DNA of 40,207 nucleotides from an uncultured Thermomicrobium sp. Its GTDB lineage: Bacteria > Chloroflexota > Chloroflexia > Thermomicrobiales > Thermomicrobiaceae. The DNA lies in assembly GCA_938028665.1 (NCBI GenBank), contig CALIMB010000062.1, positions 1 to 40,207 on the forward strand, written 5' to 3'. Each line of letters opens with the position of its first letter. Within the stretch, counting starts at the first letter, position 1. A program made the position numbers and the translations under genes. Positions 8,618 to 19,855 of the stretch are shown one piece after another. The notes beneath the pieces are model-generated. The model was not told the origin of the DNA and did not search any database. It was given only the letters and a program-made list of their open reading frames with translations.

Positions 8618-8661
8618 TCAAAGTGTATGCCCCGGGACTGGGGCACTTTGGCGCTTGAGAT

Positions 8662-8676
8662 TGAGACAACGTATCA
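8662..8676 (+). promoter_or_regulatory. Second, degenerate Zur-type box in the znuA leader
   Basis: TGAGAC and GTATCA, spacer AAC, repeat the 6-3-6 arrangement of the box at 8603 with one mismatch in the left arm. The centres are 59 bases apart. It sits just before the GAAGGGAGAAG ribosome-binding site of znuA, so it could add a downstream roadblock. Confidence 0.45.
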
Positions 8677-8696
8677 TGGATGAAGGGAGAAGAACG

Positions 8697-9845
8697 ATGC
8701 GACGCTGGTTAGTGCTGGTTTTGGTTCTTGCTAGCCTTGTGCTGTCAGCCTGTGCTCGGCAAACGCAGCCGACGCCGATGGCGGGGGTGAGTGAATCTGC
8801 AGTTCCCACGCCAACGCCGAGTGAAGGAGCAGCGGAATCGTTAACTCCGACCGTGCCGTTAGCCAAGAAGGTGGTTGTCGTCGCTAGCACCTCGGTTTTT
8901 GCCAGCATGGTTGAGGTGGTGGGTGGGAATTTGGTTGAGGTGCATGCGGTGATGCCTCCAGGGGCTGATCCACACACCTATCAGCCGACACCACGGGACG
9001 TGGTGAAGCTCGCTGACGCGCAGTTGGTGGTGTACAACGGGGGCGATCTGGATCCCTGGATGGAGCGTCAGTTGGAGGCAGTGGGAAGCAAGGCGAAAGT
9101 TGTCGTTCTTGCAGAGGGGCTGGAACCGCCGGCGGGGGTAGCTGTTAAGGAGGAGCACATAAAGGGGACACGCAAGGCGGAGCATGATCATCAGCATGCG
9201 GAGGGGACACCCGAGGCGGGGCATGATCACCGGCATGCGGAGGGGACACCCGAGGCGGGGCATGATCACCAGCACGCGAAAGAGACGCCAGTGGCTACCT
9301 CGTCGCCAGAGCATGAGCATGACCATGAACATGGAGTCAATCCGCACTTTTGGCTTGATCCGGACTTTGCAGTGATCTACATCGAGCGCATAGCGGCGGG
9401 GCTTGGAGAGGTTGACCCAGCTCATGCCGAGTTCTATCAGACCAATGCAGCACGCTACATTGAGGAGATTCGCAACTTTGATGTTTGGGCGAAGGAGCAG
9501 ATTGCGAGCATCCCACCGGAGCGGCGCAAACTGGTGACCTTCCACGACGCGTTTCCCTACTTCGCGGCACACTATGGGCTGGAGCTTGTGGGTGTTGTTG
9601 TGCTCAGCCCGGGACGTGAACCCTCACCACAGGAGGTTGCGCAACTGGTGGCGCGGATTCGGGCCGAAGGGGTACCAGCGATCTTTGTGGAGCCGCAGTT
9701 TAATCCCAAGTTAGCGCAGACAATTGCGCAAGAAGCTGGGGTGCGGGTGTTGGAGCTGTACAGTGATGCAGCGCCAGCTGGCATGGACTATTTAGGGATG
9801 ATGCGGCAGAACGTGACCAATGTGGTCGAAGGGTTGCGTGGGTGA
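8697..9845 (+). CDS. znuA: Zinc ABC transporter substrate-binding lipoprotein
   Basis: A 382-residue cluster A-I metal-binding lipoprotein that captures zinc outside the membrane and hands it to ZnuB. The N terminus is a lipoprotein signal with lipobox LSAC (Cys19), then a Thr/Pro-rich linker. The metal ligands are His93 (DPHTY), His217 (NPHFWLDP) and His283 (TFHDAF). A His/Asp/Glu-rich loop covers about residues 150-213, typical of zinc rather than manganese transporters, and is built partly from tandem 13-residue repeats. I chose the ATG at 8697 because it places the hydrophobic core directly after MRR and has GAAGGGAGAAG upstream. The stop overlaps the start of znuC. Confidence 0.93.
   Translation: MRRWLVLVLVLASLVLSACARQTQPTPMAGVSESAVPTPTPSEGAAESLTPTVPLAKKVVVVASTSVFASMVEVVGGNLVEVHAVMPPGADPHTYQPTPRDVVKLADAQLVVYNGGDLDPWMERQLEAVGSKAKVVVLAEGLEPPAGVAVKEEHIKGTRKAEHDHQHAEGTPEAGHDHRHAEGTPEAGHDHQHAKETPVATSSPEHEHDHEHGVNPHFWLDPDFAVIYIERIAAGLGEVDPAHAEFYQTNAARYIEEIRNFDVWAKEQIASIPPERRKLVTFHDAFPYFAAHYGLELVGVVVLSPGREPSPQEVAQLVARIRAEGVPAIFVEPQFNPKLAQTIAQEAGVRVLELYSDAAPAGMDYLGMMRQNVTNVVEGLRG
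9198..9275 (+). repeat. Tandem 39-bp repeat encoding the ZnuA His-rich loop
   Basis: Two adjacent 39-bp units (9198-9236 and 9237-9275) differ by only two bases and each encode AEGTPEAGHDH followed by Arg/Gln and His. A diverged partial unit precedes them at about 9162-9197. The near-identity at DNA level points to recent duplication by slippage, which changes the number of histidine clusters in the loop. Confidence 0.85.
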
Positions 9846-10669
9846 TGCGCGGCGGTGCAGTCGCGGTTGAGCGAGCGGCGCGGGCGACGACGATACCGGT
9901 AATCCAGGTGGAGGAGTTGACGACAGGTTACCGGCGTAATGAGCCAGTACTGCGCAATGTGCGATTCTCGGTGGAACGGGGCGCGCTGGTCGGAATCCTC
10001 GGCCCAAATGGGAGTGGCAAGTCAACGCTCTTCCGCGCGTTGCTCGGACTCTTGCGCCCCTGGGAAGGCAGAGTGCTGGTGGAGGGACAGCCGGCTCGTC
10101 CCAATCCCGACATCGCTTATATTCCGCAGCGGGAGACGATCGACTGGGACTTCCCGGTGACCGTGCTCGATGTTGCCTTGATGGGTCGGTATCCTCGCCT
10201 TGGTTTGTTCCGTCGCCCTGGCAAGAATGATCGGGAGCTGGCGCTCTGGGCTTTGGAGCAGGTGGGATTGGTGGATCAACGTGACCGACTGATTGCCGAG
10301 CTTTCTGGTGGTCAACGACAACGGGTCTTTTTGGCACGGGCACTGGCACAGGAACCGGAGCTGTTTCTCCTGGATGAGCCGGTGAGTGGGGTTGATGCTC
10401 CGACGCAGCACTTCGTTTTCGAGCTCCTGGAACGTCTTTGTCGACAAGGGAAGACGGCGCTGGTTGCGACTCATGATCTCTCGTGCGTGGCGCAGCGGTT
10501 CGACCGGGTACTGCTCCTTAACCACGAAGTGATTGCCTACGGCCCGCCGCAAGAGGTGTTTACGGAAGCGCTGCTTCACCGCACCTTCCGATCTCACCTT
10601 TTGCTCTTGCGGTACGGTGATCGGGTCATCGTGGTGGAGGATGAGGATGGGGATGAGCGGAGCTGTTGA
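9845..10669 (+). CDS. znuC: Zinc ABC transporter ATP-binding protein
   Basis: A 274-residue ABC ATPase powering zinc uptake with ZnuA and ZnuB. Walker A is GPNGSGKST (residues 53-61), the signature is LSGGQRQR, Walker B is LFLLDEP and the H-loop is VATHD. The short PQRETIDWDFPVTV Q-loop region is typical of the zinc/manganese branch. ATG 9845 overlaps the znuA stop (TGATG), which implies coupling; an in-frame GTG at 9842 would add one residue. The C-terminal 30 residues end in an acidic tail that overlaps the znuB start region. Confidence 0.92.
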   Translation: MRGGAVAVERAARATTIPVIQVEELTTGYRRNEPVLRNVRFSVERGALVGILGPNGSGKSTLFRALLGLLRPWEGRVLVEGQPARPNPDIAYIPQRETIDWDFPVTVLDVALMGRYPRLGLFRRPGKNDRELALWALEQVGLVDQRDRLIAELSGGQRQRVFLARALAQEPELFLLDEPVSGVDAPTQHFVFELLERLCRQGKTALVATHDLSCVAQRFDRVLLLNHEVIAYGPPQEVFTEALLHRTFRSHLLLLRYGDRVIVVEDEDGDERSC

Positions 10670-11510
10670 GTTGTTTGTCGAACCGCTGCGGTACGGGTTT
10701 CTCCTGCGGGCGCTGGTTGCTGCCGTCCTAGTTGGGGCGATCGGTGCCGTGGTTGGGAGTTACGTTGTGCTCAAGGGATTGGCGTTTATCGGGGATGCGT
10801 TGGCGCACGTTGCTTTCACTGGGATCGTGGTAGCCTTCCTGGCTGGATTCAGCTTTTACGTTGGTGCGTTGGCAGCGGCGATCACCGCTGGGCTGGGAAT
10901 TGGCTGGGTGACGCGTCGCGTGGGGCTCAGTACGGATACAGCGATTGGGATTGTGTTTAGTGGGGTCTTTGCCCTTGGTGTGGTGCTGATGGCGATAGGG
11001 ATCCGGACCTATACGGTTGATCTCTTTAGTTACGTCTTTGGAGATATTTTGGCGGTGCGGGCACGTGACCTGTGGGCGATTGCCCTGGCGGGGATCCTTG
11101 TGGTAGGAGTGGTTGTGGCACTGTACAAGGAGCTTTTGTTTGCGCACTTCGATCCGGTGGTGGCCGAGGCGACGGGGCTCCCTGTTGGCGTGTTACAACT
11201 CGTTCTCTTGCTTCTCCTTTCGGTTACGGTTGTTGTCTCGGTGCAAGCGGTAGGGGTGGTGCTGGTGCTGGCGATGCTGGTGACACCGGCGGCGACAGCA
11301 GCCCTCGTTGCCCGAAGACTCGCAAGCATGATGCTGCTCGCTGTCTGTTTTGGCGTCCTGGCGGCACTGGTTGGCTTCTACCTGAGTTACTACGCGAGTG
11401 TCCCCTCGGGGGGAGCCATTGTGCTGGTGGCGACGGTGCTGTTCGTCCTGGTGGCAGGGCTGGTCCGCGGGCGCGGTGCCTGGCGACGATTGACGGCTGC
11501 GTACCGGTAG
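10653..11510 (+). CDS. znuB: Zinc ABC transporter permease
   Basis: A 285-residue integral membrane permease of the ABC-3 (ZnuB/AdcB/MntB) family with about eight to nine hydrophobic segments. It forms the channel for metal delivered by ZnuA. The family region GSYVVLKGLAFIGDALAHVA lies near the N terminus, and a Gly/Val/Ala-rich C-terminal half reads VSVQAVGVVLVLAMLVTPAA. The start overlaps the end of znuC by 17 bases. In-frame ATGs at 10641 and 10647 are alternatives, all just after GGTGGAGG. No terminator with a T-run is seen after the stop at 11510. Confidence 0.92.
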   Translation: MSGAVELFVEPLRYGFLLRALVAAVLVGAIGAVVGSYVVLKGLAFIGDALAHVAFTGIVVAFLAGFSFYVGALAAAITAGLGIGWVTRRVGLSTDTAIGIVFSGVFALGVVLMAIGIRTYTVDLFSYVFGDILAVRARDLWAIALAGILVVGVVVALYKELLFAHFDPVVAEATGLPVGVLQLVLLLLLSVTVVVSVQAVGVVLVLAMLVTPAATAALVARRLASMMLLAVCFGVLAALVGFYLSYYASVPSGGAIVLVATVLFVLVAGLVRGRGAWRRLTAAYR

Positions 11511-11780: not shown

Positions 11781-11923
11781 GGCGGGCATGCCCATCGGTC
11801 CGTGCGTGACGCATGGAGGAGCTAAGGAGGGTTGAATTGAGGATGCAGTGATGAGATCCGGAGCTCGCACGTCTGCTGGTTGTTCCAACGGAAGACTGCA
11901 CGGTCAGTAAGGGAGTGGAAATC

Positions 11924-12328
11924 ATGCGAGTGGCGTATGTCTTTGCCACACCACGAGCGGCGAGCTACAAGCTGGGTCAGATGATCCTGCCGCAACTGGA
12001 GGCGGGGACACACGGAGTTGAGGTTGTTGGGATGTTCTTCTTCGATGATAACGTCTTTGTTCTCCGCCGGGGTGACCCGATCGGCGAACGACTAGCCCGT
12101 GTTGCCAAGGAGCGGGGAATTCTGCTCATGATGTGCGACATGTGCGCGCTGGAGCGGAACCTGGCGAAGGGACAGCCTCGCTGGTGTGATCCAGGGAGCG
12201 GACGGGGACGGACAGAACCGGCTGAAATTCAACCGGTCGAGACGGTCGAGGGTGTACAAGTGGGGTGCTTCCCTGATCTCTACGCGGCGCTGGCGCAGAA
12301 TCCGCCAGACCAGGTGATAACCCTTTGA
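11924..12328 (+). CDS. DsrE/DsrF-like (SaoD-like) sulfur-relay family protein
   Basis: A 134-residue cytoplasmic protein of the DsrE/DsrF/TusD fold. The opening strand MRVAYVFAT, a central GVEVVGMFFFDDNVF and the C-terminal Cys115 in GCFPDLYAAL fit the family, whose members carry or relay persulfide sulfur. It also has a CxxC pair (Cys71/Cys74 in MCDMCALERNLA) and Cys88, as in the DsrE-like group often labelled SaoD. The substrate is unknown. I prefer ATG 11924 over GTG 11915 because GGGAG is well spaced before it. The Zur-type palindrome upstream predicts induction under zinc limitation. A bidirectional hairpin follows the stop. Confidence 0.75.
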   Translation: MRVAYVFATPRAASYKLGQMILPQLEAGTHGVEVVGMFFFDDNVFVLRRGDPIGERLARVAKERGILLMMCDMCALERNLAKGQPRWCDPGSGRGRTEPAEIQPVETVEGVQVGCFPDLYAALAQNPPDQVITL

Positions 12329-13448: not shown

Positions 13449-13482
13449 GACACCACCAACTCGTCCGATTGTTAGTGGTGTC
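13449..13482 (-). terminator. Hairpin enclosing the nosL stop codon, end of the nos operon
   Basis: On the minus strand GACACCACTAAC pairs with GTTGGTGGTGTC over 12 bp with one G-U pair and a 10-base loop. The left arm includes the last two His codons and the TAA stop of nosL. No T-run follows. The position makes it the natural 3' boundary of the nos mRNA. Confidence 0.5.
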
Positions 13483-13930
13483 GTGGTCGCTGCGGTGGAC
13501 GGGCAAGAAGTTGTTCCCACGGGAGAAGGTCACCGCCAAGCTCTGTCTGGCGTTGCTGTGCAGCGTTTTGGTTGGCGAAGGCGGCGATACCGTAACCCAT
13601 CGGGGAACGGACATTGGTGCTCACCAGATACCAGGCGCTTTCGGCCGGTAGCCAGGACTGGGTGTCGAGATCGTGAACCCAGTGAGCCGCCCAGGCCGGC
13701 TGGTGCTTCTGTCGATAGATGAGGAGACACCCGATGTCGTCGAAGAGGTAGGTTTCTCCGTTCGCGGTAGCGGCTGCTGCGGCGAAGCGGCTGTCGGAAA
13801 GGATCATCCCGCACTCGGCGCAGGTGTCGCGGCCGTAGCGGATCTGGGGCGGAGAAAGCTCTCGCTTCCGCTGGCAGGCGGCAAGCGGCAGGGTGACGAG
13901 GAATGTGAGAAGAAGCTGACGGCGTCTCAA
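13472..13930 (-). CDS. nosL: NosL copper-binding lipoprotein
   Basis: A 152-residue NosL family protein, the copper chaperone for maturation of the nitrous oxide reductase copper centres. It has a lipoprotein signal with lipobox LAAC (Cys19) and the NosL signature DTCAECGMILSD, with Cys37 and Cys40. YLFDDIGCLLIYRQ is the second conserved family region. The start is an unusual TTG at 13930, which overlaps the nosY stop by four bases (TTGA). A strong GGGAGGT lies six bases before it, and no ATG or GTG would preserve the signal peptide. The His-rich C terminus (PRHH) is encoded within the terminator-type hairpin. Confidence 0.92.
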   Translation of the reverse strand: MRRRQLLLTFLVTLPLAACQRKRELSPPQIRYGRDTCAECGMILSDSRFAAAAATANGETYLFDDIGCLLIYRQKHQPAWAAHWVHDLDTQSWLPAESAWYLVSTNVRSPMGYGIAAFANQNAAQQRQTELGGDLLPWEQLLARPPQRPRHH

Positions 13931-14754
13931 CGTAAGACCTCCCGACGCAGGATGGAGTAGGCAGCGACGCTAGCAACAAGACTCCAGAGTAGGAGCATGC
14001 TGGCAAGAAGGAGAGATAGTGTCGCGCCAAAGCGCTCATCGGCGTAGAGACCAGCGGGTCCGAGTAGCTCCAGTGTACCGGCCAGGAGGCGTAACGCGGC
14101 GATCCGGTAGGCTTCGGTGGGATTTACCAGTGCGATCCCGAGGAGCCAGGATGGAGGCAGGCGTACCGCGAGTGCGGTGCCCATAAGACCAAGATTACCG
14201 AGCAGTACGAGTACAAGCCAGAGAGCGAGTGCAAGGCTGACGGCGGTACTGGTTCGGGTGCAACGACTCGAGAGGAGAAGGCCGAGTGAGAGAGAAGCCC
14301 AAGCGAGCAGGATAGTCAGGCCGGCAAGGGCGAGGAAGGCGAGCGGGTCCGTGGCACCAACGAAGAGTAGGAAGACAGCACTGGCGCCGAAGCCGAGCGC
14401 GACAGCGACGGCGAGGGCGAGGCCAATACCGAGCGCTTTGGCGAGAAAGTATGCTCCCGTCCCGACAGGCTGGGCCAGCCAAAACTCGAGCGCACTGCGT
14501 TCACGGTCGCTGGCCAGGGCGAGGGCCCCCAGTGTGAGCCCCATGAGGGGAACGAGGAGCAGCATGAGGTTGACCAGGCTAGCTGCGGTGCGCCCAAAGC
14601 CGCTGACTGGGCTGGTGGCACCGGTGAGAAAAACGAGGAGGGAAAGCGCGCTACTCAGGAGAAGGAGGGCTGCAGCATCGGCCAGAAACCAACGATTGCG
14701 TAGTGCGTCGCGTAGCTCCTTTTGGGTGAGAATAAGGACGGTATTACCAACCAT
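13927..14754 (-). CDS. nosY: NosY ABC permease
   Basis: A 275-residue ABC-2 type permease with six hydrophobic segments, the membrane part of the NosDFY complex required to build the copper-sulfide centre of NosZ. SDRERSALEFWLAQPVG (about residues 83-99) is the conserved cytoplasmic segment of NosY. The first helix lies at about residues 22-45 and the last at 247-268. The ATG at 14754 overlaps the end of the fused nosD-nosF gene by 11 bases, and its own stop overlaps nosL. All this indicates a single translation-coupled unit. Confidence 0.92.
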   Translation of the reverse strand: MVGNTVLILTQKELRDALRNRWFLADAAALLLLSSALSLLVFLTGATSPVSGFGRTAASLVNLMLLLVPLMGLTLGALALASDRERSALEFWLAQPVGTGAYFLAKALGIGLALAVAVALGFGASAVFLLFVGATDPLAFLALAGLTILLAWASLSLGLLLSSRCTRTSTAVSLALALWLVLVLLGNLGLMGTALAVRLPPSWLLGIALVNPTEAYRIAALRLLAGTLELLGPAGLYADERFGATLSLLLASMLLLWSLVASVAAYSILRREVLR

Positions 14755-17098
14755 CGGTAGCCTCCAACCAGAAATCTCGAACCTGGATACCTAGCCGGGC
14801 AAGGAGGTAGAAGGGCTCTGCCTTCCGCTGGGGTGGAACAATGACGCGGAGCCGCTGATCTTCACGATAGACGGCAAAGCCGTGTGCCGTGAGGAGATGA
14901 GTAGCTGGCTGCAAGGTATCGACATCGAGTTCAAGGATGAGTGATTGATGCACGTTGTATCTTATCGGCAGGGCTGCTGCGCCTGACTCAGCGACGATAC
15001 GTCCGGCCTCGAGCCGTAAGACGCGTGTGGCCAGGTGCCAGATGTCATCAGAGCGGTGCGAGGCGAAGATGATCGTCCGGCCTGACTCGCGAAGTTCGCG
15101 GAGGGTGGACAGGAGTTCCTCGCGTGCGGTCACGTCGAGGTTTGCTGTTGGCTCATCGAGCAGTAGCAGTGGTGGATCACCAATCGTTGCCAGGGCGAGT
15201 GCAAGTCGTTGTTGCATACCGCCTGAGAGAGTCCGTACTGGCTGATACCAGGTCTGCTGGAGGCCGAAGACACCCAGGCGTTCCCAGGCACGCTCCAGCG
15301 GTTCGCCGCGCAGGCGCGCGACAGTTGTCAGGAGCTCGCCAGTAGTAAGGTCGAGGAGCGGTAGCTGCTGCGGCACGTATCCGATTTGGGCGCGCACAGC
15401 TGGGCCGTCTTCGAGCGGTGAATGGCCGAAGACGGTAACTGTACCGGTGTAGGCAGTTCGGCCAAGGAGGCAGCGAAGGATTGTCGTCTTGCCGGCACCG
15501 TTTGGTCCCCAGAGGGCGAGTGCCTCGCCAGGTCGAACGATGAAGCTCACATGATCAAGAACGAGGCGATCCCCAAAATACTTGGTGAGCCCACGCACTT
15601 CCACAACGGCTGCGTCCGTGACGGTGCACGCTGCGGTTGCTACGGAGGGGGTGGTGGAAGCCAGTACCACGGGTGCAGGGGCGCGTGGAGCGGTGGTTGC
15701 CTGTGCGAGCACGAACCGTGGCGGGCGACGGAGGATGAGGAGGAGAGGAAGCGCAGCGGCAGTGAGCAAGGCAAGTGAGAGGAGCGCATGAATACGAGAT
15801 GGTGGGGAGAGGTTCCAAGGAAGATCCGGCCACGGCGTTGAGTGAACGAGTGGAGCGGGATCAGTGAAGCGTGGTGCTGGCTGGAAGAGAGGAACCGCAC
15901 GTGCAGCCAGATCGAGCGCGGAGGCAGCAAGGCTGAAGCGGAAAAAGGCGAGCAGCGGGGAGCGGTCGGTAAGAACACTTGAAAGTGCGCGGTTCTGGTA
16001 TGGCAGATCGCCAATGCCGTTGCGGTCCGCATCATAGCCGACGTAGTCGCTCCAGAAGTTGCCACGCCCAGCCTCGGCCCAGGCGATGCGGTCGAGCGTG
16101 CCGCCGCCCTGAGGCGCTGCTTGCTCGAGATTTTCCAGGAGTGTGTTGCCGATGATGAGATTAGAGCGAGTTGCCGGGCTGATGAGGAGGCCAACGTCGT
16201 TATAGGCGATCCAGTTGCCCGTTATCCGGTTGGTGACTCCCTCCGAGATCGGGGAATTGTCGATGTAGATGCCAACACGATTCCGAAGGAACAGATTCCC
16301 TTCTGCCAGGACACCGTCGGTCTCTTTCAGGGCCAAGCCGTAGCCAGACGGGCCGCGGTTATGAAAGAAAACATTGCGACGGACGGTCTGGCGCGCGCCG
16401 TACATAAGATAGATGCCGACTGAGTTGTCGCGAAGGACGTTTCCCTCAATCACGCTCTCCTGTGAATACATGAAGTGGAGACCATAGCGGCCGCGTTCGA
16501 CCACGTTGTTGCGGAAAAGCGTGTGATCAGAATACCAGACGATGACATCACGGCTATCCTCAACACGGTTGTCGACAATGTGCGTTCCCGGGCTGTACCA
16601 GAGTTTGATGCCGTCGCCGCGTTGTGGCTCTGGAAGCGGTTTGCCAACGATACGATTGGCTTGGACAAGCGCACCTGGTGCGTTGAGGAGCTGGATGCCG
16701 AAGAGGCTGTCGAGTACCTGGTTACCAACGATCTGGGCTCCTGGTGCCGTGACAAGGATGCCGGTGTCCTCGCGATCGTGACTTGTGCCGCTACCGCGGA
16801 CAATGAACCCTTCAATATGAACACGAGGTGCAGCAACGTGAATGACGGTCCCCTGACCGCCTCCATCAATGACTGGCCAGTTCTCGCCGTACAGTGTCAG
16901 CGGGCGGTCGATAACGACCCGGCCGACATAGACACCACCACGGACGCGAATTGTTGCTCCGGCTGGTGCAGTGGCGATTGCTTCCTGGATCTGGCGGAGT
17001 GAGCAATCGGGGCAGACAATAAGCTCGCTGGCATGAACCGGTGGTGGCGTCAGCAGCAGGAGCACGGTCAATGTTGCGGCGAGAACAAGCCGGTGCAT
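14744..17098 (-). CDS. NosD-NosF fusion: beta-helix domain, TM helix, ABC ATPase
   Basis: A single 784-residue frame joins two proteins that are normally separate. Residues 1-24 are a Sec signal peptide. Residues 25 to about 430 are NosD, a right-handed beta-helix of repeated NosD/CASH units (for example RNNVVERGRYGLHFMYSQES). Residues 436-459 form a transmembrane helix, and an Ala/Pro/Thr-rich linker leads to a NosF-type ABC ATPase from about residue 505. That part has Walker A GPNGAGKTT near 530, LSGGMQQR, LLLLDEPTANLD and an H-loop FASHRSD, then a 75-residue C-terminal domain. The topology is sensible: NosD outside, ATPase inside. The ATG at 17098 has GGGGGTG before it. A GTG near 15606 could allow separate NosF, but lacks a ribosome-binding site. 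Confidence 0.93.
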   Translation of the reverse strand: MHRLVLAATLTVLLLLTPPPVHASELIVCPDCSLRQIQEAIATAPAGATIRVRGGVYVGRVVIDRPLTLYGENWPVIDGGGQGTVIHVAAPRVHIEGFIVRGSGTSHDREDTGILVTAPGAQIVGNQVLDSLFGIQLLNAPGALVQANRIVGKPLPEPQRGDGIKLWYSPGTHIVDNRVEDSRDVIVWYSDHTLFRNNVVERGRYGLHFMYSQESVIEGNVLRDNSVGIYLMYGARQTVRRNVFFHNRGPSGYGLALKETDGVLAEGNLFLRNRVGIYIDNSPISEGVTNRITGNWIAYNDVGLLISPATRSNLIIGNTLLENLEQAAPQGGGTLDRIAWAEAGRGNFWSDYVGYDADRNGIGDLPYQNRALSSVLTDRSPLLAFFRFSLAASALDLAARAVPLFQPAPRFTDPAPLVHSTPWPDLPWNLSPPSRIHALLSLALLTAAALPLLLILRRPPRFVLAQATTAPRAPAPVVLASTTPSVATAACTVTDAAVVEVRGLTKYFGDRLVLDHVSFIVRPGEALALWGPNGAGKTTILRCLLGRTAYTGTVTVFGHSPLEDGPAVRAQIGYVPQQLPLLDLTTGELLTTVARLRGEPLERAWERLGVFGLQQTWYQPVRTLSGGMQQRLALALATIGDPPLLLLDEPTANLDVTAREELLSTLRELRESGRTIIFASHRSDDIWHLATRVLRLEAGRIVAESGAAALPIRYNVHQSLILELDVDTLQPATHLLTAHGFAVYREDQRLRVIVPPQRKAEPFYLLARLGIQVRDFWLEATDGW

Positions 17099-17102
17099 GG
17101 TG

Positions 17103-17738
17103 TCACCCCCGTTGGGCAGAGCCGCGCAGCCGCGCGGCGATGCCGATGAGTGCACTGAGGGCAGCGAGGATGGCCAGGTATAGTCCACTACCGAACCGCG
17201 CTTGAACAACAAACTGTCCAACTCGCCCCGTCCCAAGTACGGGTGGTGTAAAGGGTTTGATCGAGCTTGAGAGTGCAGCGTGCGGATCAAGGTTATGGCC
17301 AAAGTACCAGAGCCAGTACTGGAGATCAGCGATGAAGATAATGGGGAATATGACGATCAGGATGGCGAGAAGTGTGATCCAGCGTTGTCGGAGTAAACCG
17401 GTGAAAAGGGCGAGGAGCGCCAGAGCCGCGACGCCGTAGGGGGCAATCGCGCGCTCGAAGGGCGCTGCCTCTTCCAGCTTCATCATCCCGATATAGTGGT
17501 TGAGTCCATTCACTTCTTGGACGTCACCAGCAAGTTTCGTGAGATAGATCAGAACGCGGAGTCCGCCTGGGTACTGAGGCGCAAGTAGCGTCATGTGCCA
17601 GTACGGAAGCACCAGTGAGACTCCGAGCAAGATGGCTGCGAGGAAAAAAAGTATGCGATCCCTGCTGTGGGCAATCACTGCGCTGAGCGATTGTATGACG
17701 TTTAGTCTTGCGGTGGTCCGGGTGGTAGCGATTTCCAT
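17103..17738 (-). CDS. NosB-like integral membrane protein of the nos cluster
   Basis: A 211-residue membrane protein with about four hydrophobic segments (near residues 28-47, 98-116, 120-140 and 185-203). It contains a conserved block PYWHMTLLAPQYPGGLRVLI and then GLNHYIGM (residues 78-85), which I associate with membrane proteins in clade II nos clusters such as NosB. Their role is unproven; electron delivery or copper-site assembly has been proposed. The ATG at 17738 follows GAGAAAGGATCG. The stop is 4 bases before the nosD-nosF start, so it is translated with the maturation genes rather than with nosZ, from which it is separated by a strong hairpin. Confidence 0.7.
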   Translation of the reverse strand: MEIATTRTTARLNVIQSLSAVIAHSRDRILFFLAAILLGVSLVLPYWHMTLLAPQYPGGLRVLIYLTKLAGDVQEVNGLNHYIGMMKLEEAAPFERAIAPYGVAALALLALFTGLLRQRWITLLAILIVIFPIIFIADLQYWLWYFGHNLDPHAALSSSIKPFTPPVLGTGRVGQFVVQARFGSGLYLAILAALSALIGIAARLRGSAQRG

Positions 17739-17827: not shown

Positions 17828-19855
17828 TCAGGTCGGCTTCACCAGGAAATAGCCCATCATTTCGAGATGCAGGGCCGAGCAGAACTCTGTGCAGTAGAAC
17901 GGGAAGGTGCCTGGAATATCGGCGACGAAGCGGATGGTCTGAGTTTCACCAGGCTCGAGACTGAGGTTGATGTTGTAGCCCCCGAGGGCAAAACCATGCG
18001 TTGCGTCCTTGGCACGCTCGATGTTCGTGAGGTGCCAGATCACTTCATCTCCCTGCTCGACCTCGATGAGATCCGGGCGAATCTGGCTGCGCAGCAGGAC
18101 ACCCCAGATCTCAACGGTCTTGCCGCGTCGCTCAATGCGCTCGTCACCGACCTTGAGAACGGCATTGGGATCGACGCTGTGGGTGTGTGGGTTCCAACCC
18201 ACCTCGGGGTAGATCTCCCAAGCCTTGATCCGCTCCCGCTTAATGATTTGCGCGTAGTGTGGCTCGCCGATCCCGATTGGGCTATCGTAAAGGACGCGCA
18301 TCGGTTGATTGGGTGCAATGGAGATCAGCTGCGCGTTCTGCGGCAGCAGTGGTCCGAGGCTGGCAAAGCGGTCAACTGACCACTTGTTGTGTGCGACGAG
18401 GAAGCGACCGGCAGGCTTGACAGTATCCCCCTCTGCGGCAGCAAGGTGTCCAATGTTGTACTGGACCGGTAGTTTCTCTACCAGCTTCCAGCCATCTTCG
18501 TGATAGGGCTTGCCGAGTGACCACTTGGCGACCGCACTATCCAGGAACAGGCTCGTATAGGCGTAACCCTGATCGTCAAACTGGGTGTGCAAGGGACCGA
18601 GGCCAAGCTCAACCTGGGTCTCGACACACTGTTCGAAGGGAAGGACCGGGATGCCGTATTCATCGGTATCCCAGTTACCCGCTTGGATGGCCTGCTGAAT
18701 CTTGGCAAAGCTGTAAACGGTGACGTGAGGATCGAGCTTCCCTGCCACGACGATGTAGTCTCCACCCGGCGTCACATCCACACCGTGCGGGCTCTTCGGC
18801 TCTGGGATCAAGAAGAGGACCCCTTCCTTTGCAGCGACATCCATGCGGATGACTTTAAAACCGTTGATTATCTCGTATTTGCCGGCCGCGATGACTTCTT
18901 CAGCCTTCTTCCAATTGACGACATGGAGGTAGTCCATGTCACGTTGGGTCGTGGCGATCTCCATAGCTGGCCGACCCTCTAGCAAGCCCGGAAAAGCGAG
19001 TTCCGTGTTGAACGAGTTCCAGAAGGCCCAGCCGTGGGATGGCCCTTTCCCAGCATCGGCCAAGTCGTGCCAGTACGGAGGCGTCTCAATGGCAAACGAC
19101 TCCTCGGGGATAATGCGCCCCTTCTGTCGGTCGAACTTCCAGAAGGTGAGAACACCACGGTACTTTTCCTTGTACTGAGTGATTGGCGCGTAGACGCCGC
19201 CAAGCGGCACTGAGTACTGGTCAGCTTCGAGCACGTACTCGGTGTTTGGTGTCACAAAGCAGCCACCGTGCTCATTAACAAGGAGGGGATTCTTCACGAT
19301 CTGCTTGGTCTCAAAGTCCCGGAGATCAACGACGGCAATGCGACCATTCGCTTTGTCGTTGATGAAGAGGAATTCGCCGTCATATTCGCCATTGGTTTCG
19401 CTCAGGGCCGGGTGGTGCGTATCGCCCCAGAGGATCGGCTTTCCGTGGAAGTAGCCCCCCTCAAGGACCTCACTCGTGGAGCCACCGTAGCCGTAGCCCT
19501 GCCATGGCTCCGGGGCAAAGACAGCGATCACCTTGAGAAGGCGCATCGACGGCAAACCATGGACTAACACCTGCCCACCGTGGCCGGTTGAGGAGAACAT
19601 GAGAAACTCATCGTATTTACCAGACGGAACGTATGTCATGAGCGCTGCGGTCACATCTTCCGGAGTGAGTTGCCGCTGCTTGATAATTTCGTCGGCCGTG
19701 ACGCCGAGCTTTGGTGCCTCCTCTTTGCGCTGCAAGACACTGCAACTTGCGAGCAGGGCACCAGCTGAGAGCCCTGCCGCTGCACCGAGGAGTCCTCGTC
19801 GACTGACCTTGTGTTGATTGACCTGGAACGGTGGTCGATCACGGTTCTCGGTCAT
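17828..19855 (-). CDS. nosZ: Nitrous oxide reductase
   Basis: A 675-residue NosZ that reduces N2O to N2 outside the membrane. The seven-bladed propeller carries CuZ-type His motifs: GDTHHPALSETNG, NEHGG, SPHGV, GPLHTQF and EPHYA. The C-terminal cupredoxin domain has the CuA site Cys655, Cys659, His663 and Met666 in FYCTEFCSALHLEMMG, with another ligand in DATHGF. The N terminus has a twin-arginine motif (SRRGLL) followed by a hydrophobic stretch ending in the lipobox-like LASC, suggesting Tat export and possibly lipid anchoring. I chose ATG 19855 because GGAGGAGGG lies 7 bases upstream; the frame extends farther upstream without family similarity. No nosR is adjacent. Confidence 0.95.
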   Translation of the reverse strand: MTENRDRPPFQVNQHKVSRRGLLGAAAGLSAGALLASCSVLQRKEEAPKLGVTADEIIKQRQLTPEDVTAALMTYVPSGKYDEFLMFSSTGHGGQVLVHGLPSMRLLKVIAVFAPEPWQGYGYGGSTSEVLEGGYFHGKPILWGDTHHPALSETNGEYDGEFLFINDKANGRIAVVDLRDFETKQIVKNPLLVNEHGGCFVTPNTEYVLEADQYSVPLGGVYAPITQYKEKYRGVLTFWKFDRQKGRIIPEESFAIETPPYWHDLADAGKGPSHGWAFWNSFNTELAFPGLLEGRPAMEIATTQRDMDYLHVVNWKKAEEVIAAGKYEIINGFKVIRMDVAAKEGVLFLIPEPKSPHGVDVTPGGDYIVVAGKLDPHVTVYSFAKIQQAIQAGNWDTDEYGIPVLPFEQCVETQVELGLGPLHTQFDDQGYAYTSLFLDSAVAKWSLGKPYHEDGWKLVEKLPVQYNIGHLAAAEGDTVKPAGRFLVAHNKWSVDRFASLGPLLPQNAQLISIAPNQPMRVLYDSPIGIGEPHYAQIIKRERIKAWEIYPEVGWNPHTHSVDPNAVLKVGDERIERRGKTVEIWGVLLRSQIRPDLIEVEQGDEVIWHLTNIERAKDATHGFALGGYNINLSLEPGETQTIRFVADIPGTFPFYCTEFCSALHLEMMGYFLVKPT

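Follow-up and report, generated by a model that had tools for sequence, protein, structure and literature searches.

Nitrous oxide reductase (NosZ) removes the greenhouse gas N2O and is active only with its copper sites loaded. The stretch of DNA analysed here (the window; 40,207 nucleotides from an uncultured Thermomicrobium sp.) carries a nos operon in which two accessory proteins, NosD and NosF, appear as one polypeptide, which raises the questions of whether this chain is a genuine and intact protein, how widely such chains occur, and how a transporter built from them would be composed.

The gene, nosDF, lies on the minus strand as a single open frame (784 codons) that runs from an ATG at 17098 to a stop codon at 14744–14746, while the plus strand of the same interval contains stops throughout. 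The preliminary description had given both the interval and the single uninterrupted NosD–NosF frame correctly; the strand, which it left unstated, is the minus strand. The operon is ordered nosZ-nosB-nosDF-nosY-nosL:

17828–19855, minus strand: nosZ, nitrous oxide reductase of clade II type (TIGR04246)
17103–17738, minus strand: nosB, a clade II nos protein with four TM segments (LNHYIGM at residue 79, GHN at residue 147)
17103–17110, minus strand: nosDF ribosome-binding site GGGGGTGA, which overlaps the stop codon of nosB (anti-SD duplex −12.9 kcal/mol)
14744–17098, minus strand: nosDF, fused NosD-TM-NosF of 784 aa (open frame, TIGR04247 and ABC_tran matches, model)
13927–14754, minus strand: nosY, permease, overlapping the end of nosDF by 11 bases, with its own SD at −9.3 kcal/mol (PDB match to NosY)
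13472–13930, minus strand: nosL, copper chaperone with a TTG start (Pfam NosL, 50.5 bits, cut-off 24)

The locus is a clade II nos cluster by its type of NosZ (927 bits for TIGR04246, cut-off 625, versus 388 for the Tat-type model) and by the nosB adjoining nosZ, whose two motifs are published (PMC9697520). The marks of clade I are a nosR adjoining nosZ and a soluble NosD; NosD is TM-anchored here, and neither the annotated genes flanking nosZ in T. roseum, where the gene order is the same, nor the window ORFs compared with Pfam included a nosR. The sole PDB match of the nosY product is NosY (7o0y_D, E 6.8e-22), and nosY is single-copy in the window’s genome. In a whole-chain search of this genome, the next best ABC ATPase was a paralogue on contig 4, 39% identical, which was rejected as a free NosF as it is encoded beside its own ABC-2 permease; neither a second NosF-like gene nor a second NosY was found in this genome. 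The NosZ N-terminus (KVSRRGLLGAAAGLSAGALLASC) bears a twin-arginine motif and a lipobox (SRRGLLG...LLASC; window 19700–19855, minus strand) despite a Sec-dependent score, as does that of T. roseum, and NosZ is possibly a Tat-exported lipoprotein. Two plus-strand neighbours are also conserved beside the operon: a DsrE/SaoD-like protein (window 11915–12328; 84–93% identical in the genus and sister genus), a possible candidate for a sulfur carrier serving the copper-sulfide site, and a metal ABC transporter consisting of a binding protein with His-rich repeats, an ATPase and a permease (window 8655–11510).

Within nosDF, the following parts were delimited:

17030–17098, minus strand: putative Sec-type signal peptide, residues 1–23 (hydropathy peak at 3–23; model helix 2–15)
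15821–17026, minus strand: NosD right-handed beta-helix and C-terminal helices, residues 25–426 (TIGR04247; alignment to 7osf/7o0y)
15731–15796, minus strand: single TM helix, residues 435–456, followed by basic LRRPPR (hydropathy, model, positive-inside)
15617–15727, minus strand: disordered Ala/Thr/Pro-rich cytoplasmic linker, residues 458–494, about 37 in all (pLDDT <50; composition)
14981–15610, minus strand: NosF nucleotide-binding domain, residues 497–706 (ABC_tran; Foldseek 7osf_B, 7o0y_B)
15485–15508, minus strand: Walker A GPNGAGKT, residues 531–538 (sequence)
15206–15229, minus strand: ABC signature LSGGMQQR, residues 624–631 (sequence)
15149–15169, minus strand: Walker B LLLLDEP, residues 644–650 (sequence)
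14747–14980, minus strand: NosF C-terminal R-domain, residues 707–784 (model alpha/beta domain 718–780; Foldseek)

A signal peptide, a complete NosD beta-helix, one TM helix, a disordered linker and a complete NosF ATPase that includes the R-domain therefore follow one another along the chain. The match to TIGR04247 (NosD) spans residues 37–418 and model positions 1–376 of 377 (415 bits, cut-off 300), and the NosD part aligns with solved NosD (7osf_A, Z 45.5; 7o0y_A, Z 44.7; 379 residues, 27% identity), which ends at its residue 429, just ahead of the point where the TM helix starts here. Hydropathy reaches 2.55 with one strong interdomain peak at 435–440 (19-residue windows), and the helix is flanked by one K/R before versus four after, as expected of a positive-inside segment. 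On the far side, Pfam ABC_tran matches residues 514–652, solved NosF is matched among PDB sequences at E 1.5e-32, and the best Foldseek matches of the C-terminal half include NosF (7osf_B and 7o0y_B, over 288–291 columns) and ABCA transporters, the alignments to both kinds covering about 290–305 columns. The NosF switch His is present (ASH, residues 679–681), and by motif Glu649 is the predicted catalytic glutamate, the counterpart of E154 in Pseudomonas NosF, whose E154Q variant is named in PDB titles and PMC11573801. An AlphaFold model of the single chain, built with 32 fused relatives (mean pLDDT 87), has a helix at 2–15, the beta-helix from 25, the TM helix at 435–456, disorder at 458–494, the ATPase at 499–706 and an alpha/beta domain at 718–780. 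Profiles, motifs, hydropathy and model thus agree with the topology first proposed, in which NosD lies outside, one TM helix crosses the membrane and NosF, complete in its motifs, lies inside, and they leave next to no doubt that the chain is a NosD joined to a NosF.

Close relatives carry the same gene. Three further Thermomicrobium genomes carry complete in-frame fusions, as do other genera of this family. Contig ends cut the chain in congeners G002 and G005; wherever it escapes such a cut, all genomes of the genus and its sister genus have the fused state. In the complete genome of T. roseum DSM 5159, the plasmid nosDF is one CDS (WP_012643063.1), annotated only as “NosD” and 70% identical to the window chain along its length. 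The nos gene order recurs in T. roseum, and the order of neighbouring genes is preserved in three more congeners and, DUF6069 apart, in a sister genus.

More widely, 25 of 400 evenly sampled Chloroflexota genomes have a NosD of this protein family; the search for NosD–NosF architectures across this phylum, which the preliminary description had suggested, found 11 of these 25 to be fused, with fused and separate forms intermixed within the window genome’s order. Further loci came from a GTDB genome scan (80 loci) and from surveys of Planctomycetota and Armatimonadota, and after removal of duplicates the collection comprised 50 distinct fused chains and 75 separate NosD, with the fused chains distributed over Chloroflexota and five further phyla (Planctomycetota, Armatimonadota, Tectimicrobiota, Calditrichota and Elusimicrobiota). 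NosD–NosF fusion is recurrent across phyla and hidden in databases under the name NosD. The initial view of the fusion as a departure from characterised clusters was right in that the fusion is real, but it recurs in about 50 chains from six or more phyla.

A quick maximum-likelihood tree, built from 125 NosD+NosF rows, calls for at least 12 switches between fused and split, or for 17 independent fusions if splits are disallowed, counts that are approximate given 35 weak forks and that leave out three contig-cut loci (L011, L097, L118) as well as L016 and L022. Some of these loci have probably moved between lineages or been misbinned. For example, L061, labelled as Isosphaeraceae (Planctomycetota), lies only about 0.12 changes per column from L050 of the Chloroflexota, which points to one or the other. 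A genome from the Planctomycetota survey (G639) holds two different fused nosDF genes, L146 and L155. Several candidates were rejected: a four-gene in-frame chain including NosY (L099, 1258 aa), in which Ns occupy the expected break sites; G028 as a split gene, which has a one-base frameshift inside conserved NosD; and long open frames in the G205, G430 and f30 genomes, which are not NosD–NosF, the upstream partner being NosB in G205 and f30.

The step that preceded fusion can be read from the separate proteins. A C-terminal hydrophobic segment, with basic residues mostly commoner after it than before, ends 67 of the 75 separate NosD, and three of the eight tails scoring no TM belong to cut or frameshifted genes (L097, L118, L022); a TM segment (KD >1.3) is likewise present in 48 of the 50 fused linkers. 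A C-terminal TM helix was reported for all five NosD of Bacillus azotoformans by Heylen and Keltjens in 2012 (PMC3475470). No such helix is present in the clade I NosD that were examined, from Cupriavidus and Sinorhizobium, so the contrast originally drawn with a separate periplasmic NosD is valid for the soluble clade I protein but not for most separate NosD of this collection or those of B. azotoformans. As most separate NosD already bear the helix, membrane anchoring predates fusion, and fusion adds NosF onto the pre-existing cytoplasmic tail of NosD. With the aligned NosF domain starting at the nosD stop codon in 31 of the 75 separate loci, fusion of an anchored NosD to its adjoining NosF is a small step that requires no re-siting of a soluble periplasmic protein.

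NosB enters similar fusions. In-frame NosB–NosD–NosF chains, the longest spanning 938 codons between stops, occur in Armatimonadota (L137, L156) and Elusimicrobiota (L136):

L137, 3850–6663: NosB–NosD–NosF
L156, 3–2675, minus strand: NosB–NosD–NosF
L136, 1234–3951: NosB–NosD–NosF

NosB–NosD fusions occur in Chloroflexota, Omnitrophota and one genome of the Planctomycetota survey (L049, L055, L057, L058, L125, L151), and the motif LNHY(I/V)G(M/V) was present in all eight NosB-fused chains checked. NosB is essential in Wolinella. The literature leaves open whether it takes part in the maturation complex (PMC9697520), and the double and triple fusions argue that NosB works with that complex, suggesting that it may be part of it.

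What the fused chain does is best approached through the homologous Pseudomonas complex. The reading that we favour, at a probability of roughly 0.7, is that NosDF is a single-chain half-transporter that pairs on a NosY dimer and drives the copper loading of NosZ with ATP. Each chain would hold NosD outside the membrane on one TM anchor and NosF inside on a flexible cytoplasmic tether, and two chains would pair through their NosF domains, seated on a NosY dimer, to give (NosDF)2(NosY)2. NosF would bind and hydrolyse ATP, and NosY would pass the effect on to NosD, driving it to take copper from NosL and hand this to apo-NosZ as the copper sites of the enzyme assemble. Such a chain would have arisen when NosF, often starting at the nosD stop codon, was joined to the cytoplasmic tail of an anchored NosD, and the joining would ensure co-insertion, fix D:F at 1:1 and tether NosD permanently, giving two NosD per transporter.

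That last point sets the chain against the solved structures. Chain counts in the PDB (NosD 16 in 16 entries, NosF 30 in 15, NosY 34 in 17) agree with the one NosD per NosF2/NosY2 given in the preliminary description, and the 1:1 ratio of NosD to NosF that it considered forced follows from the single chain, provided that the chain stays intact. As no second NosF-like gene was found in the genome, any NosF dimer must consist of NosDF and bring two NosD, unless the chain is cut; and in the absence of a second NosF or NosY and of an internal start backed by a ribosome site, the natural complex should be (NosDF)2(NosY)2 with two NosD. By analogy with Pseudomonas, D2F2Y2 is probably the native composition, and it is plausible that the fusion alters how the complex assembles. 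Against this composition, the solved complexes contain one NosD per NosF2Y2, so that two NosD might not both fit. It is quite possible, if short of an even chance, that only one is docked on the NosY dimer at a time while the other hangs on its tether, as the solved Pseudomonas complexes with one NosD per two NosF and two NosY and the long, flexible tether would both allow; the PDB copy searched, in contrast, holds only NosD of the Pseudomonas type and no complex of a fused or TM-anchored NosD. In a fully symmetric version, the NosZ dimer would have its two active sites served by both tethered NosD of a (NosDF)2(NosY)2 machine that also counts NosB among its subunits; the in-frame NosB–NosD–NosF chains of Armatimonadota and Elusimicrobiota point towards this place for NosB, but the version as a whole is rather unlikely.

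As possible as one-sided docking, and likewise short of an even chance, is the proposal that fusion is functionally neutral: a lost stop codon or a frameshift would merge adjoining nosD and nosF genes, and the merged state would drift in and out of lineages and leave the mechanism unaffected. In the 31 separate loci where the aligned NosF domain starts directly at the stop codon of nosD, one mutation could join the two genes, and both the number of switches on the tree and the way in which NosB likewise joins and separates are consistent with drift. In contrast, whole clades remain fused, including all chains of the genus and sister genus uncut by contig ends, and the TM between the domains is required in every fusion, so that fusion is topologically constrained.

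It is improbable that cutting within the linker, or an additional internal start of NosF, turns the working complex into an ordinary D1F2Y2 like the solved one with its single NosD. The linker is disordered, variable and weakly constrained, as a cut site could be: compared with the nearest congener, NosD and NosF each have a dN/dS of about 0.08 and the linker one of 0.23, the linker ranges over 0.23–0.39 in comparisons involving the window chain, and in one closer pair (39 codons, few changes) it reaches 1.37, which suggests that the linker sequence itself is only loosely constrained. However, none of the four GTG codons tested in or beside the linker offers an SD-backed start for NosF (anti-SD duplexes of −3.3 to +1.4 kcal/mol versus −5.7 to −12.9 at real starts), the positions of these codons differ between the genera compared, and the fused frame is maintained in about 50 distinct chains; the product of nosDF is very probably a single intact chain. 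That sequencing or assembly joined two genes can be dismissed, for although such errors are known (the frameshift of G028, locus L022, and the Ns of L099), three congeners have the complete chain, and the finished T. roseum plasmid carries it as one CDS. These intact frames also answer the concern, raised at the outset, that a stop or frameshift might lie between the domains, and with those of other genera in the family they show the fusion to be neither chance nor an assembly slip.

The favoured half-transporter can be approached experimentally, as T. roseum, an existing isolate, provides a thermophilic single-chain NosDF in which the D:F stoichiometry is directly testable. Annotations that lack nosF can mislead: nosF is missing from the genes (nosDYLZ) given in the Thermoflexus genome paper (PMC8129789), and Thermoflexus NosD is fused to NosF (L069, L079). 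Thermoflexus NosD and WP_012643063.1 of T. roseum share the fused architecture described here, with no difference in kind.

Fused nos accessory proteins are already known. For example, NosB–NosL fusion proteins occur in Dyadobacter and Flavobacterium (PMC9697520), although these have other partners and join no ATPase across the membrane; an open-literature search of incomplete coverage returned no description of NosD–NosF fusions, and this joining is apparently undescribed in the literature found. Clade II clusters with a separate NosD, such as those of B. azotoformans and many Chloroflexota and Planctomycetota, resemble the present locus in the signal peptide and C-terminal TM of NosD and in the clustering of nosZ, nosB, nosD, nosF and nosY, but have NosF as a gene of its own, often abutting nosD. 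The NosDFY of Pseudomonas stutzeri (7o0y, 7osf and related entries) shares the NosD fold, the NosF ATPase with its R-domain, the NosY partner and the NosL neighbour; there, however, three separate proteins form D1F2Y2, whereas here D and F are one TM-anchored chain.
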